A DNA stretch of 64,000 bases, taken from assembly GCA_020851635.1 (NCBI GenBank), contig JADZCJ010000015.1:1-64000 (forward strand), given 5' to 3'. Shown piece after piece: positions 7,124-14,859 of the stretch (the first letter of the stretch is position 1; every line of letters begins with the position of its first letter). The DNA is from Anaerolineae bacterium (lineage in GTDB: Bacteria > Chloroflexota > Anaerolineae > UBA4142 > SHND01). The notes below the pieces were generated by a model. That model worked only from the letters and a program-made list of their open reading frames with translations. It was not told the origin of the DNA and searched no databases. A program made the translations under genes and the position numbers.

Positions 7124-8239
7124 ATGTCCCAATCCAAACCATCATTTTTCGCAAATCTCGCCAATTTTTTCCGTTCGCTCTTTGGCGCGTCACCGCCTTC
7201 CCCCGCTCAACCCCCCACCGAACCCGACAAACCGGTCATTACGCCCGAGCCCCTCGTCCCGCTCGAGCCGCGCGTCGTGGCGTTGGTCTATGACCCTATT
7301 GTGGACCCGATAAAGAATTTGTCGCTGATAGAATGGGGCAGAACAAACCGCGGATGGTCACGCGTCGAGGACTTGATAGCGGGCTATCTGGCTGACGTGG
7401 ACGAGACCAGCGGCGGACTCGTCAAATACAACGTTGTCGAGCGCATCACCATACCTGAATTTCCGCTCAAGGCGGACGGCTTTCGCTACACCGCGCTCGA
7501 ATTCCTTGACATGTATACCAACCACATGGACCGGTATCACCAGCCCGACAAGATTGACTATTACAAAATCATCGCCGACCATCGTCTCACGGAACGTGTC
7601 AACAATGATGAAATTGACGAGGTATGGATTTTTGCGCCGCCCTTTGCCGGTTTGTATGAATCTATCATGTGCGGGACCGGCGCGTTTTGGTGCAATGCCG
7701 AGCCGCTAGCCAACACCTCCGGCAGACGCTATGTGATCATGGGCTTTTCGTACGAGCGCGGCGTCGGCGAAATGGAAGAAGACCTCGCGCACCGCACCGA
7801 ATCGCTCATGGCAAGAATCTACAATGCCCAGAGTTTTCTCAGCTGGACCTACGCTTTTCGCAGCAACCCCAACCAGTTCGACGCGCTCAAATACGCCGAG
7901 ACCAATCTATTCGCCAAATTTTTGCTATTCGATAAAATCGCGCCGGGAAACGCACAATGTGGAAACGTCCACTATGCGCCCAACAGCGATCAGGATTACG
8001 ATTGGGGCAATCAGCGCCCCGTTGTCACCTATGCCGATGACTGGCTCACCTTTCCCAATCTGCCCCGCGCGCCCAAAACGCAAAACGCCGCCGCCTGGGG
8101 CAGTGGCGACATTCGCGGACATCATCATTGGTGGTTCAGCCGTTTCCCCAAAGCTGCGGGACGCATCAACGGAATTTCCAACAACTGGTGGAGCTATATT
8201 TGTGATGTGACCAATCCGGAATTTGACGCGCGTGCGTAG
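7124..8239 (+). CDS. Conserved-looking protein of unknown function, 371 residues
   Basis: I do not recognise the family. An N-terminal amphipathic stretch (FFANLANFFRSLFGA) is followed by a Pro-rich linker (residues 25-50) and a roughly 320-residue globular domain rich in aromatic residues. That domain includes DEVWIFAPPFAGLYES and a C-terminal HHHWWF cluster. No classical signal peptide is visible, though the linker style matches exported proteins of this genome. A GGAG ribosome-binding site lies eight bases before the ATG, and a TATAAT box is at 7084-7089. The gene ends before a bidirectional terminator at 8334-8367. It may form a unit with the preceding binding protein (75-base gap), but it has its own -10 box. 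Confidence 0.7.
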   Translation: MSQSKPSFFANLANFFRSLFGASPPSPAQPPTEPDKPVITPEPLVPLEPRVVALVYDPIVDPIKNLSLIEWGRTNRGWSRVEDLIAGYLADVDETSGGLVKYNVVERITIPEFPLKADGFRYTALEFLDMYTNHMDRYHQPDKIDYYKIIADHRLTERVNNDEIDEVWIFAPPFAGLYESIMCGTGAFWCNAEPLANTSGRRYVIMGFSYERGVGEMEEDLAHRTESLMARIYNAQSFLSWTYAFRSNPNQFDALKYAETNLFAKFLLFDKIAPGNAQCGNVHYAPNSDQDYDWGNQRPVVTYADDWLTFPNLPRAPKTQNAAAWGSGDIRGHHHWWFSRFPKAAGRINGISNNWWSYICDVTNPEFDARA

Positions 8240-8333: not shown

Positions 8334-8367
8334 AAAAACCCGATGTCGCTCGTGACATCGGGTTTTT
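8334..8367. terminator. Bidirectional Rho-independent terminator
   Basis: A 14-bp stem with the core CCCGATGTC/GACATCGGG and A5/T5 flanks, between genes converging from 8239 and 8415. Confidence 0.9.
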
Positions 8368-8414: not shown

Positions 8415-9254
8415 TTACGGGTTGCATACGCTGTCAATGGAGGAGACCGGGTCATCCCGCCCGGTTTCGCCGACGAAATAAAGTTCGACTTCGACATCTC
8501 CCGAGGCGGACGGGTCTCCGGAAATAAAATGATAAGTCTTCATAACGGTCCCGTCAAAAATGCGCGGGTATGCCTCGCTCAAAATCCGCGCGGTTTCCTC
8601 TGCCAGGCGGTTTCCAATGGTGGGGCTAGAGTCCGAACCAAAAATCAATGCAACACCAACCCGTTCCACGTTGTTGAATCGCGCCAGACACTGCTGAACT
8701 TGTGTGCGCAACTGGGCGCGCATTTCCTCGCGCAGGCGCGCGCGCGCCTGCTCCGAGCCGGTCAATAACGCCCGCGCGGTCGCCGGACTGACTTTGAAAT
8801 TCGCGACAAAGGGGGTTCCACTCAGCCCATAAACCACCGTCGGATACGGCGTATAGGTTGACAGCGGCGTAAAAGTTGCCCGCGGAGTCTGTGTTGCGAC
8901 CGGTGGAAACGGTGTGTAGGTGGGGTACGGCGTATAGGTCCATTCCGGCGGAATCGGCGTAAACGTCGGATACGGCGTATACGTCAAGTTCGGCGGGAAC
9001 GGGGTGAACGTAGGATACGGCGTAAAAGTATAAATTGGAGTAAAGGTCGGGTACGGCGTATACGTCGGTAGTCGTGTAATTGTCGGGGTCGGCGTAAATG
9101 TCAAACTGGCGGTTGGAGTGATCGTTGGAGTTGGCACGGGCGGCGTGCCTTTGCTTGCTGCCACAAAAAACAACAATCCCAGACCCAAAAGCAAGTCGGC
9201 AAAAAGCCATCCCGCCAGAGCGATGGTATCACGCGAAGAATTTCCGGTATTCAT
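8415..9254 (-). CDS. MotB/ZorB-like single-span membrane protein with TPYPT repeats and a degenerate OmpA-like C-terminus
   Basis: A 279-residue protein, last gene of a three-gene operon. A short N-terminus leads into one membrane span (about residues 11-33), which carries Trp16 and Asp20 in the pattern W-xxx-D-LLLGLGLLFF. MotB, ExbD and ZorB proteins hold a proton- or sodium-carrying Asp in the same place. Residues 38-140 are a repeated T-Y-T-P-Y-P-T-F-T-P linker, long enough to cross a cell wall. Residues 197-261 (VGVALIFGSD, helix NRLAEETARILSEAY, then VEVELYF) could be a divergent OmpA-like peptidoglycan-binding fold. That last point is inference from strand-helix order only. The ATG at 9254 has GGAGAG five bases upstream. 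The alternative is a secreted stalk protein with no motor role. Confidence 0.6.
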   Translation of the reverse strand: MNTGNSSRDTIALAGWLFADLLLGLGLLFFVAASKGTPPVPTPTITPTASLTFTPTPTITRLPTYTPYPTFTPIYTFTPYPTFTPFPPNLTYTPYPTFTPIPPEWTYTPYPTYTPFPPVATQTPRATFTPLSTYTPYPTVVYGLSGTPFVANFKVSPATARALLTGSEQARARLREEMRAQLRTQVQQCLARFNNVERVGVALIFGSDSSPTIGNRLAEETARILSEAYPRIFDGTVMKTYHFISGDPSASGDVEVELYFVGETGRDDPVSSIDSVCNP

Positions 9255-9342
9255 TAAATCTCTCCGAGCTACAATAGCCGGCGCTGCCGGCAACCTCGGC
9301 AAGCAAGCTCGTAAATCAACTTGCCCAATCCAGCAGCCATGA

Positions 9343-10860
9343 TCAGTTGGGAAAAACGCGCAGCATCAAAAATACAGCGCCGATTACAAGAATCGAGGCA
9401 ACGACAACGCTCGCGCCGATGGCAAAGGCGAGAGGCATCACCTGAATCTGCGCCTGAACAGGTCCGGTATTGCGGTTGAGCGCCTGCTGTTCCAATGCCT
9501 GCGTCACGCTCGCCCGCTCGGTCATGAACGCCCGCATCGTCTGAGTCAGTTCGTTGCGAATCTGGGTGAGCAGATTCGTCTGGTCGCGCGCGATTTCCGC
9601 GTTGGTCCGCGCAAGTCCCTCCACGGTTGACCTCAGCTGACTCGCGCCGAGGGCGCCCGCTTCATCGCGGCTTGACGCGACAGTGGTGGATAAAGTCCGC
9701 TCCAAGGAATTGATCGCCGTCCGCAGTTCATCCTGACCTTTCAACACTGCCGTCACTGTAACAACCGCGCCCGCGATGCTCGCCGCGGAACTACTGCTCT
9801 TGTCCACCGCCAACCGCAGGTCATCCGTCGTCTTGCGAAGCGCGAGACCCCAACCCTTGGCTTCTTCCTCCATCAGGTTCAGCTGTGCCGCAATATCAGT
9901 CAACTTGTCTTCCTGGACCACCGTGTTGGCTTGGACCGCCCCGGACAATTGTTCGATGGCGGTCGCCAGCCGCGCAGACGTTTGCGACGCCGATTCCAGA
10001 TTTGAAAACATCTTGTCAACGTTGCCGGTCAGCCCATTGCTAAAGACGCGCAGTCCATCCGCTTCTTCTTTCATCTGCCCCACCACCATGCCCAGACGCA
10101 AGTCCAAGCCCTTGGTGAGATTCATCCATTCGCGCGCGCCGCCATCCATCTGGCTGACCGCCGAGCCCATCTGCGCGGAAATCGTGTTAAACTGCAAAAG
10201 CGCTTGCTGGAGGTCCTCGACCACGCCAATATCTGTATCCGTGCGACGGCGGCTGCTCAGCGCTTTTTCAATTTCCCACAGCGCATCTTCCACATCGGCG
10301 CGAATCTTGGCGGCATCATTATTTGCGCGCGTCGCCCCAACATCCTTGCGATAGTGCACCAGGATCGTCAGAAAAATAATAATGACCAGCACAAAGGCGG
10401 CGAGCAGCGCGGTCTGACTGAATGTCATAAAGGGCATCACCGCCTTGCCCGCAAAACCCGTTTCCCAGAGATAGAGAAAACTCTCACCTCGCATCTGGGG
10501 GTCCGATTGCAACAACGCCCCATAGTCCTGCGCCGCCAGCCAAAAGGAAAACCAGGTCAACGTGATGGGGACCAGCACGAGCACGTTGCGGATCCATTCG
10601 AAACCACTCCACAGCGTGCTGTATTCGCGCAGCGCCTCATCGGCGGCGCGCTTTTCGATTGCCTCCGGATCAAACGCGCCATATATGTTGATATTGGACA
10701 GCTTGCCCATTTGGACGTCACTGCTCAATGCCTCATTAAGCGATTGCAGGCGCCGCGCGGGCTGGCCCATGTTTATCCGATTCAACTCGGAAACAGCCAG
10801 GTCCACCTTGAGATCACGGTCCACCCCCGGCCCGGTCCGCGGTACGATTACGTTTTCCAT
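9343..10860 (-). CDS. Membrane-anchored coiled-coil protein (operon partner)
   Basis: A 505-residue protein. An N-terminal cytoplasmic region (1-88) is followed by two membrane spans (about 91-110 and 147-169), a roughly 300-residue predominantly helical region with heptad-like repeats (175-470), and a final C-terminal span (about 477-502). The helical part has the feel of chemoreceptor or tail-like coiled coils (TAIEQLSGAVQ, TISAQMGSAVSQM). It sits between the RING protein (ends at 10904) and the MotB-like protein, so it is the natural stator or partner subunit if the latter is energised. I cannot align it to MotA, TolQ or ZorA by eye, and its span arrangement differs. The ATG at 10860 has a near-perfect GGAGGTG nine bases upstream; longer in-frame starts at 10941 and 10983 lack one. 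Confidence 0.65.
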   Translation of the reverse strand: MENVIVPRTGPGVDRDLKVDLAVSELNRINMGQPARRLQSLNEALSSDVQMGKLSNINIYGAFDPEAIEKRAADEALREYSTLWSGFEWIRNVLVLVPITLTWFSFWLAAQDYGALLQSDPQMRGESFLYLWETGFAGKAVMPFMTFSQTALLAAFVLVIIIFLTILVHYRKDVGATRANNDAAKIRADVEDALWEIEKALSSRRRTDTDIGVVEDLQQALLQFNTISAQMGSAVSQMDGGAREWMNLTKGLDLRLGMVVGQMKEEADGLRVFSNGLTGNVDKMFSNLESASQTSARLATAIEQLSGAVQANTVVQEDKLTDIAAQLNLMEEEAKGWGLALRKTTDDLRLAVDKSSSSAASIAGAVVTVTAVLKGQDELRTAINSLERTLSTTVASSRDEAGALGASQLRSTVEGLARTNAEIARDQTNLLTQIRNELTQTMRAFMTERASVTQALEQQALNRNTGPVQAQIQVMPLAFAIGASVVVASILVIGAVFLMLRVFPN

Positions 10861-10903
10861 GCTTTGATTCACCTCCGCAATATCATACACCTGATGACTG
10901 GGT

Positions 10904-12811
10904 TCAATCGTCCACCGGTCTGGCAAGCTCACTTTGGACATACTCGATGCGCTGCATATCTTCGCTGGCGAGCGCGCTGGCAATCCGTTCCTTGCGACTC
11001 GTATTTTTCAATGCCCTGACAAGCGTTTGTTTTTCATGGTCGTTCAACAACTCCAAACCCTCATGCAAATAGCCGGGATTCCACGCTTCAAAGATGGCGC
11101 GGTCATCCCCCGCGCCCAGCGCGTTCGTGAGCACCCTCCAGCGCTCCTGAAACTCGAGCGCGGCACGGATTTTGCTCCAATTCAGGGTGTTTGGCAAAAT
11201 GACGCCCGCGTCATACGCCTTTTTGTAGGTCGCAGCAATCGCCAGTTTAATGTATGCCATCTCCGGCGCTTGTTCGAGCCGCCTCAATTCGTCAATTGCT
11301 GTGAACGTAGCCAGCGCATTGCGTACCTGTTTCATCTCAAACGGCGACAACAACGCGTCTATCGTCTCCAGATTCTCGGGACCCTCACACCAATCCACAA
11401 TCTGCTGAAGCATCGTTTCTGTCCAGGGACGGTCAGCAATCGCTTTTCGCAATTCCACGACCGTCTGCACCGCTTGCTGCACCCGCTCAACAACGACCTT
11501 TTCTGACCCATCCAAATGCTGCATCAGTCCAACCGCCAAAGCCGGGTCTTGAATCAGGACGCTGACCGCCCGCAAATCATTTCGACGGATTGCGCGCCTC
11601 AGCGCAAGCAGCGGCTTGAACACGCGTCGCGCGTTATTGATTTCATCGCGTTTTCCTTGCGCCAACAACTTGTCATCTGCCAGCAACTCTTCATCATACG
11701 CAATGATCAGATCGCGTTCGTTATCTGCTTGCGCCACCCGCGCCCGCGCGGCGCGGCGCCCTGCGGCTTGACGCACGCGCTCCAACGTCGCATCGGGAAG
11801 CACCCAGCCAACAGCCAGCGCGGCAGTGGCGGCGGCAAGAATCTGCTCGTCATCTCCACTGATCACGGCTTGGCGCAGCGTATCGCGTGACCGCGCGCGC
11901 CGCGCGTCATAGAGCGCGCTGCGATCATTTTTCGAGAGTGCTCTGGAATCGGCAAGATGCAATTCATGCTCTTTATCGTCATACAGGTCAAGCGCCCTGT
12001 CCTGCGAATTCACGCGCGCCAAATAATTTTTGATTTCGCGGATCACCCCGAGCCGCTCCAACGCCAACACCCCGCGCGTGCGGTCTTCCGTCGTCAGAAT
12101 CCCGAGCCGTTCGTAATAGTCCAACATCGCAAACGAAGTGTAACCGGAAGCGCGTTCGGTCAAAATCTTCTCCAACGCCTCGTCGTCATTTTGTTCGAGC
12201 GCGGCATTAAAGCGCTGCTGCAATTGCAGCGTGAGCTGCCGGATCGCCTCTTCCACATGCGGTTTGTATCCGTTCAAAAAGTCATCGCATGAATCAAAAT
12301 GCTCGCGATTGGCTTCATAGATTTCGACGACACGCTGCCAACGTTTTTGACGATACTCGGTCCGCAGTTGTTCCATATGGCGCACGCACCGATTCGCGAC
12401 AGCGATCTCGGCGCGATACTTTTCCGCCGGTTGGAAATATCCAAACAATTCCTCGTTCCACGCCGCCGCCATCCGCCGATGACTGCCGGACGCATATTCA
12501 GCTTCGAACTTTTCAAAAGCCGTCCAGCGGTCCGTGTTCAGGTGCGCCTGTTCGGGACCCTCATCCATCATAAACACCTCATGCACGCGCTCGGGCTGGT
12601 AAGGAATTGTGCCATGCCTGCGGCTCCGCGGATTGAGCAGGCAGTTTGGTTTGGCACATCCCCCATGCACATGCCAGCACCACACATGGTGCTGGGTGGC
12701 ACATTCCGGGCACCTGCCCACGCGCCGCTTGTCGGGTTCGGGACCAATCGGGCGCTCGGCGGGCAGCTGACAGACCGGGCAGTTGAGCGGAGGTGATGCT
12801 TGAAATGTCAT
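10904..12811 (-). CDS. Prokaryotic RING-finger protein with alpha-helical repeats
   Basis: A 635-residue protein, first gene of the operon. The N-terminus holds a zinc-binding module: Cys11-x2-Cys14, Cys34-x2-Cys37, His41/His42, Cys45, Cys52 and Cys57 with the HHVWCWHVHGGC signature. This matches what I know as the prokaryotic RING family (CP.C....HH..CW...GGC). The remaining 550 residues are helical, with a degenerate repeated unit of the form L-xx-A-I/V-xxx-D-xxx-I/L followed by E-xx-R-V-xx-A. Examples lie around residues 310, 390, 440 and 560 (LRQAVISGDDEQIL, LRRAIRRNDLRAVSVL). No enzymatic motif is visible. Prokaryotic RING proteins are often wired to membrane or stress modules, so a scaffold or adaptor role is likely. 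A TATAAT box at 12897-12892 probably starts the operon. Function is unproven. Confidence 0.7.
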   Translation of the reverse strand: MTFQASPPLNCPVCQLPAERPIGPEPDKRRVGRCPECATQHHVWCWHVHGGCAKPNCLLNPRSRRHGTIPYQPERVHEVFMMDEGPEQAHLNTDRWTAFEKFEAEYASGSHRRMAAAWNEELFGYFQPAEKYRAEIAVANRCVRHMEQLRTEYRQKRWQRVVEIYEANREHFDSCDDFLNGYKPHVEEAIRQLTLQLQQRFNAALEQNDDEALEKILTERASGYTSFAMLDYYERLGILTTEDRTRGVLALERLGVIREIKNYLARVNSQDRALDLYDDKEHELHLADSRALSKNDRSALYDARRARSRDTLRQAVISGDDEQILAAATAALAVGWVLPDATLERVRQAAGRRAARARVAQADNERDLIIAYDEELLADDKLLAQGKRDEINNARRVFKPLLALRRAIRRNDLRAVSVLIQDPALAVGLMQHLDGSEKVVVERVQQAVQTVVELRKAIADRPWTETMLQQIVDWCEGPENLETIDALLSPFEMKQVRNALATFTAIDELRRLEQAPEMAYIKLAIAATYKKAYDAGVILPNTLNWSKIRAALEFQERWRVLTNALGAGDDRAIFEAWNPGYLHEGLELLNDHEKQTLVRALKNTSRKERIASALASEDMQRIEYVQSELARPVDD

Positions 12812-14109: not shown

Positions 14110-14859
14110 TTATGATGGAATACAAACCTCTCGCAGGGTGCGCCGCGCGTCCGCTTCAAATTCCAAACCTTCGATCGGCGGACGAGTCAAATACCACCGC
14201 ACCCCCTGCATCTGCGCGCGCCCGAGCGGTCCAAGTATCACCTCGCGCATAAAAGAGAAAATATCGTGCGCCGTATAGACATTGAACGCGGTGCAGTCGT
14301 CCCAACGCAAGCCCAGCGTATCCAACCGCCCATTGAGCTCCGCCATCACAAAGACCGCTTTTTCCCGCATGGCATCGTCGGAGGTTTCCCCCGCGCGAAT
14401 GATGCCGCGCGCGCCGTCCAGATCCGCCGCGCCCGACAATACAAAATCGCGCGGTGTGCCCCGGTCGGTGGCCGCGACCGTGTAGGCAAAGGCATAGATG
14501 ACAGGCTGCGACGGTGGATTCATTTCGACGGCAAGGTTGCTGCGCGTCATGGGACCGACACCATTCATCTGCAAATCATGTTTTTTCAACGCGGGCAAAT
14601 AGACGCCGTTGTTAAACTCGCCAAATTCCGACATCGAGAGACGCCGCGGCGAGCGCAGTTCAATCGCACAGACCGCTTGCGCGGGTCTGCCCTGTTTTAT
14701 CAAATAATCGGCAATCCAGTCAAAACCTTCCGTGACGGGCGGTGGTTTCAAAAATGTGACATGGATAATGGCGTAACCGGGGTCAGCGATCACCGCGCCG
14801 GAAAACGCCGCGCCGCCCTGTAAAAAACGATAGTTACCGCGTGGATTTGATACCAGCAT
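14110..14859 (-). CDS. RidA-superfamily protein, resembling 2-amino(chloro)muconate deaminase
   Basis: A 249-residue cytoplasmic protein. The N-terminal MLVSNPRGNYRFL and the spacing of GFDWIADYLIKQGRP and ELRSPRRLSMSEFGEFN resemble, from memory, the two-domain RidA-like family that includes CnbZ (2-amino-5-chloromuconate deaminase). The C-terminal half has the RidA-like element LNGRLDTLGLRWDDCTAFNVYTAHD, in which one subunit strand supports imine or enamine hydrolysis. The identification rests on remembered sequence style, and no neighbour supports an aromatic degradation pathway. AGGACC lies upstream of the ATG. An equally safe label is RidA-like deaminase of unknown substrate. Confidence 0.6.
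   Translation of the reverse strand: MLVSNPRGNYRFLQGGAAFSGAVIADPGYAIIHVTFLKPPPVTEGFDWIADYLIKQGRPAQAVCAIELRSPRRLSMSEFGEFNNGVYLPALKKHDLQMNGVGPMTRSNLAVEMNPPSQPVIYAFAYTVAATDRGTPRDFVLSGAADLDGARGIIRAGETSDDAMREKAVFVMAELNGRLDTLGLRWDDCTAFNVYTAHDIFSFMREVILGPLGRAQMQGVRWYLTRPPIEGLEFEADARRTLREVCIPS

Follow-up and report, generated by a model that had tools for sequence, protein, structure and literature searches.

A two-gene membrane module with an invariant intramembrane aspartate in Chloroflexota and Actinomycetota

The three-gene locus and the recurring pair

The window, a stretch of 64,000 nucleotides (nt), comes from contig JADZCJ010000015.1 of an Anaerolineae bacterium (Chloroflexota; assembly GCA_020851635.1; genome of 5.8 Mb) and carries on its minus strand three consecutive genes, named here A, B and C. 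A preliminary description, made from the sequence of the window, had proposed that they encode an ion-powered envelope machine equipped with a RING adaptor. The arrangement that it reported, three genes on one strand with gaps of 43 nt (A-B) and 88 nt (B-C), B and C each preceded by a good ribosome-binding site, was confirmed from the sequence, and the locus is laid out as follows:

10904-12811, minus strand: gene A, 635 amino acids, with a RING-type zinc cluster and a helical repeat array
9343-10860, minus strand: gene B, 505 amino acids from the ATG at 10860, with two core spans, a coiled coil and an optional third span
8415-9254, minus strand: gene C, 279 amino acids from the ATG at 9254, with an Asp-bearing span, a Pro/Thr linker and an OmpA-like domain (predicted)
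10870-10876, minus strand: ribosome-binding site of gene B, GGAGGTG, 9 nt 5' of the ATG (from the sequence)
9260-9265, minus strand: ribosome-binding site of gene C, GGAGAG, 5 nt 5' of the ATG (from the sequence)
8334-8367, minus strand: terminator-like inverted repeat of 14 base pairs after gene C, with the loop ACGAGC, running into T5-A-T4 (from the sequence; a pattern scan listed just a shorter version, on the plus strand)

A profile of the two-span core of B was used to search 400 genomes of the phylum, 30 of which carried the gene in a patchy distribution, and C was found 3' of B in the loci read, separated from it by between a few dozen and about 250 nt. The pair is also present in a genome of the same genus (G004). 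A DNA pattern of the C span alone, scanned over 84,980 species genomes, returned 97 stretches from Chloroflexota and Actinomycetota; the translated motif was present in 94 of them, nearly all with a full C, and 31 of the 80 named records could be assigned to the actinobacteria from their genus or title, most of these to Streptosporangiales. B was encoded directly 5' of C in 85 of the 94 C loci, and most of the others had too little upstream sequence.

Because the pattern of the C span demanded the Asp, which made that search circular, an actinobacterial order was searched with B alone, allowing any residue at the Asp position of C. B was detected in 62 of 299 genomes, and C followed it, with W, A and D intact, in 32 of the 33 loci that were read (seed genomes included); C likewise adjoined B in 16 of 18 further loci, the remotest Bs (E about 1e-8) among them. 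Bs from Chloroflexota and from actinobacteria belong to a single family by profile comparison (hhalign 99.4%, E 1.2e-21). An exact-pattern scan of genome contigs with B alone gave no match, short exact patterns being too stringent. Since the obligate pairing holds in both the C and the B-only searches, and the Bs join by profile, comparison of the loci identifies B and C as a two-gene module. The trio, which was expected to be conserved together in other genomes, was not; the B-C pair is what recurs.

Spans and invariant residues of B and C

The following features were located in the two proteins of the pair:

10537-10590, minus strand: first span of B, residues 91-108, with the invariant P98-x3-T102-W103
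10357-10422, minus strand: second span of B, residues 147-168, with Ala154 here and Asp in most relatives
9451-10338, minus strand: coiled-coil region of B, residues about 175-470 (from the sequence), with weak matches to the ZorA and JetC coiled-coil models
9361-9441, minus strand: third span of B, residues 474-500
9156-9224, minus strand: span of C, residues 11-33, with G15-W16-x2-A19-D20
9195-9197, minus strand: codon of the invariant Asp20 of C
8835-9146, minus strand: linker of C, residues 37-140, 61% Pro+Thr
8460-8819, minus strand: residues 146-265 of C, a predicted beta-alpha-beta-alpha-beta-beta domain whose fold is closest to the OmpA/MotB type

In the alignment of B relatives, P98, T102 and W103 of the first span are invariant (115/115), as is W132 (117/117), and A109, Y113, F128 and F136 are nearly so. 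Position 154 in the second span is Asp in 81 of 116 proteins, Thr in 30 and Ala in the window protein, a variation for which this Asp was rejected as an essential residue; actinobacterial Bs often have an Asp a few residues before it. The three spans and the coiled coil of about 300 residues that had been described for B hold for the window's protein, where about 295 residues, largely coiled coil by appearance, separate the second and third spans, but not for the family, since a third span was found in just 11 of 122 relatives and was rejected as a core feature. A match to the PADLOC ZorA model (E 5.7e-5) does not make B a ZorA member, because it covers the coiled coil alone and the JetC, LmuB and PDC-S04 models match Bs about as well. 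No relatives of B were found in plasmid or viral collections.

Three B paralogues from Ktedonobacteria (L043, L052 and L062) lie without an adjacent C, two of them being followed by a TetR-type regulator. In these proteins S-F, S-C or T-G replaces the T-W of the first span. The paralogues appear to be a natural control for the link between B and C, with the loss of T-W counted as one event because they may represent one lineage.

In the span of C, residues G15, W16, L17, A19 and D20 are invariant, and Asp20 was present in all of the Cs reached via B (32/32 from Chloroflexota and 32/32 from actinobacteria). In a profile search against the sequences of the PDB, D20 fell in register with residue 25 of ExbD at a sub-threshold score (E 0.5-1), and the C profile aligned with 14 Chloroflexota MotBs at W-L-x(0-2)-[FY]-A-D, which brings the Asp into register (E 0.007; reversed control, E 0.34). 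The Cs of some Ktedonobacteria (L049, L055, L056 and L060) have a Cys-containing, Ig-like-looking segment in place of the Pro/Thr linker.

AlphaFold predicted the C-terminal domain with a predicted local distance difference test score (pLDDT) of 81-96, and the best aligned solved chains were of OmpA type (Z 8.6 and 8.3 over about 99 residues), together with MotB (Z 7.4) and chorismate mutase (Z 8.0). The match to the OmpA fold is suggestive, because chorismate mutase, which is unrelated, reaches a Z of 8.0. Foldseek gave no match to the PDB at E <= 0.001, and its top rows for C, TubZ/FtsZ, were set aside, as they covered odd parts of the protein with template modelling (TM) scores of 0.15-0.25. 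The design of MotB, ExbD and ZorB that had been attributed to C was thus recovered, as a single span with an invariant Asp, a Pro/Thr linker and a predicted OmpA-like fold at the C-terminal end; the multi-span partner that such a protein calls for is B, its near-constant gene neighbour, with an invariant Thr in the first span.

Gene A and the other neighbours of the pair

Two regions were distinguished in the product of gene A:

12641-12781, minus strand: residues 11-57, a prokaryotic RING-type Cys/His cluster (from the sequence and its relatives)
10922-12292, minus strand: residues 174-630, a helical repeat array with homologues encoded immediately 5' of B at other loci

The cluster has eight Cys/His ligands in RING order (C11-x2-C14-x19-C34-x2-C37-x4-H42-x2-C45-x6-C52-x4-C57) and matches small RING proteins from other genomes of the class, with the same ligand pattern, at E values from 9.9e-6 (the best) to 0.01. 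The best zinc-finger family in Pfam, Prok-RING_1 (PF14446), scored below its cut-off (11.8 vs 29.1 bits), and the AlphaFold model of the cluster was unusable (pLDDT 26-55). Residues 174-630 were predicted as helices (pLDDT mostly 75-93), and the reading of A as a RING-type cluster plus helical repeats was upheld by these helices and by the ligand pattern shared with the relatives. A structure search with the array gave weak, mostly TPR-like matches, none with Z >= 8; A had no PADLOC match, no relatives in plasmid or viral collections, and was found in none of five genomes of the same genus.

When 99 relatives were searched with A, one weak relative was recovered, directly 5' of a B relative. 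A-like repeat proteins without the RING, or with another N-terminal part, were encoded directly 5' of B at six other distinct loci. Among the A-like proteins before B, those of L009 and L010 have no other domains, that of L044 is short, those of L045, L052 and L110 are longer with other N-terminal parts (kinase-like by eye in L052), and that of L081 is cut by the end of the locus. Among the related loci fetched, a RING before B was seen in the window's A alone, so that the proposed RING adaptor is not a general part of the machine; elsewhere the slot is filled without it, and the RING of gene A is a local addition or fusion. The RING-bearing trio was rejected as a conserved unit, no second RING having appeared in the related loci fetched. 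At another locus of the class (L177), adjacent genes encode two different small RING-type proteins with the ligand pattern of gene A.

The neighbours of the pair were surveyed in 96 distinct loci of at least 6 kb, with few query sequences, so that the counts are minimum counts, and with no random-locus baseline. At least one tested neighbour family was present in 56 of the 96 loci: kinases in 30, vWA in 22, PP2C in 16, DO-GTPase or GAP1 in 12, HSP70 or DnaJ-like proteins in 9, A-like repeats in 7 and BrxD in 5. A DO-GTPase2 gene (E 3.5e-9) lies 5' of the pair in L011, together with GAP1, and HSP70 is found beside it in L049 and L055. Four actinobacterial loci (L071, L096, L111 and L124) carry a B-C-vWA-PP2C-kinase-like-BrxD cassette, in which BrxD was recognised by PADLOC at E 3e-160, and a helicase adjoins BrxD in L071 and L132. 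BrxD plus a helicase after the B-C-vWA-PP2C-kinase genes recalls the BrxD/BrxHI dyad of BREX, with the difference that the stretches read held no PglX, PglY or PglZ gene, save a partial match of the kinase-like protein to the PglZ model. The cassette resembles an uncharacterised defence locus, its kinase-like protein matching the end of that model. In L012 (genome G144), the pair adjoins a HerA/FtsK-like ATPase of 1073 amino acids and three Ser/Thr kinases.

Conflict systems with variable transmembrane components were treated by Kaur et al. 2020, and the neighbour themes in the sections concerned match those of the B-C loci (PMC7159879); the pair itself is not described in the sections of that paper on transmembrane components, and the text of a 2026 BREX survey makes no mention of MotB, OmpA or PP2C. 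The pair is thus undescribed in the literature searched. The window's locus is without the partners of the GAP1-N2 DO-GTPase, HSP70 and kinase/PP2C/vWA systems (PMC7159879), although B-C lies in such neighbourhoods elsewhere: neither a DO-GTPase nor a GAP1 gene was found beside the trio, and DO-GTPase2 was not found in the window's genome. The trio has housekeeping-type genes as neighbours and is flanked by open reading frames at 7124-8239 (371 amino acids) and 14110-14859 (249 amino acids), neither with a Pfam match at the thresholds applied. Judged by gene content, the B-C neighbourhoods point to conflict or defence systems more than to general envelope work, and the proposed envelope machine is supported in part.

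A possible wall-anchored motor and the competing explanations

MotA/MotB, ExbB/ExbD and TolQ/TolR resemble B and C in being encoded as a gene pair with a wall-side domain, and MotB also shares W-L-x(0-2)-[FY]-A-D with the Asp in register. The motor of type 9 secretion is built from two-span GldL and single-span GldM subunits at a ratio of 5:2; compared by description, GldM uses four periplasmic domains as a shaft, where C has a predicted OmpA-like domain. GldLM shows that a 5:2 motor can lack obvious sequence homology to MotAB (PMC9389320). In ZorAB a conserved Ser/Thr ring of ZorA encircles the essential Asp of ZorB, and experiments established that Zorya defence requires the ZorA tail and wall binding (PMC11890865). 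Zorya is like B-C in its long-tailed multi-span protein, its adjacent single-span Asp protein with an OmpA-like domain, which in C is predicted, and its defence-type linkage, whereas the core of B is two-span and not of MotA type, and B-C occurs here in Chloroflexota and Actinomycetota. No PADLOC Zorya match (ZorC, ZorD or ZorE) was obtained for eight proteins near the trio. Nothing in the window's entire genome matched PF01618, PF13677 or PF02472, PF01618 being positive in 8 control genomes, and B and C were recognised by no curated family. The pair would work like a MotAB/ZorAB-type module yet outside those families, and it cannot be filed as a member because their defining profiles do not match.

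The chances are about even, in our estimation, that B and C form a wall-anchored, ion-driven or ion-gated membrane complex working like MotAB, ExbBD, ZorAB or GldLM. In such a complex several B subunits, each a two-span hairpin, would encircle a membrane-embedded dimer of C, possibly in a 5:2 ratio, and the Pro/Thr linker of C would extend to the cell wall, carrying the OmpA-like domain. Asp20 of C would lie within the membrane opposite Thr102 of B, ion flow being carried or gated as the wall domain becomes engaged or comes under strain, and the cytoplasmic coiled coil of B would pass the resulting movement or signal on to a partner in the cytoplasm that varies between loci. Here A would take this part through its helical array, its RING serving as a tip for protein binding; elsewhere the partner may be a kinase/PP2C/vWA, DO-GTPase/GAP1, HSP70 or BrxD/helicase module. 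The role of the pair is likely to be envelope sensing in a conflict system of anti-phage type. The fuller proposal, that B and C represent a previously unrecognised family of ion-driven motors, anchored in the wall and dependent on the Asp, that share the design of MotAB/ZorAB beyond the reach of sequence comparison and power or gate a whole class of conflict systems based on GTPases, kinases, HSP70 and BrxD in Chloroflexota and actinobacteria, with the RING-helical array of A as one of several interchangeable cytoplasmic outputs, is put forward tentatively, as somewhat short of an even chance.

Several results weigh against a motor. B had no significant match to PF01618 (MotA_ExbB), nor had 24 members of the C family to MotB_plug (PF13677), ExbD (PF02472) or the OmpA families in Pfam; the alignment of C with MotB carried an hhalign probability of 5%; no OmpA-type peptidoglycan-binding signature (TD ... 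LSxxRA) is conserved in the C alignment, by inspection; and the OmpA Z of 8.6 barely exceeds that of chorismate mutase, a different fold. In addition, no tested conflict-system neighbour was present at 40 of the 96 loci, and the window's pair is linked to A alone.

Another possibility is a signalling scaffold that is anchored in the wall and conducts no ions, in which C would sense wall strain or a ligand, the coiled coil of B would relay it to a partner, and the Asp and Thr would pack or form a hydrogen bond. The signalling partners at many loci (kinases, PP2C, vWA and GTPases), a B without the MotA/ExbB signature and the invariant W and G around the Asp, which fit a packing motif, are all consistent with it. 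An unpaired mid-span Asp with an invariant partner Thr is, however, a hallmark of the ion-driven family, and the conservation of the buried Asp in every independently found C suggests chemistry over packing; we regard the scaffold as rather unlikely. It is improbable that B is instead a membrane effector, a two-span pore-former with a layout like that of the SLATT two-transmembrane (2TM) proteins, held by C as a wall-anchored latch or immunity-like regulator and killing or arresting the cell upon activation: sections of PMC7159879 report 2TM effectors in GAP1-N2 GTPase systems, and a 2TM B lies beside switch components, with three paralogues lacking C, but neither Pfam nor PADLOC gave a match to SLATT or another effector family, the long coiled coils are atypical of SLATT, and B and C stay constant and paired, unlike effectors, which are swapped. 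A complex that simply maintains the envelope of monoderm bacteria, through wall sensing or growth and with no conflict role, would account for the 40 loci free of tested conflict modules and for the housekeeping-type genes around the window's trio; it agrees poorly with the patchy spread of B in the phylum and of A in the genus, and with the recurrence of GTPase, TerY-like and BrxD modules beside the pair, and we consider it very unlikely.

If the ion-driven complex is real, the Zorya principle, in which an ion-driven sensor anchored in the wall is joined to a defence effector, would extend far wider than the Zorya families, and B-C would be the constant membrane part, the missing sensor, of the GAP1/DO-GTPase, HSP70 and kinase-PP2C-vWA systems. 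Further pairs can be detected by P-x3-T-W in the first gene and GWLFADL in the next.

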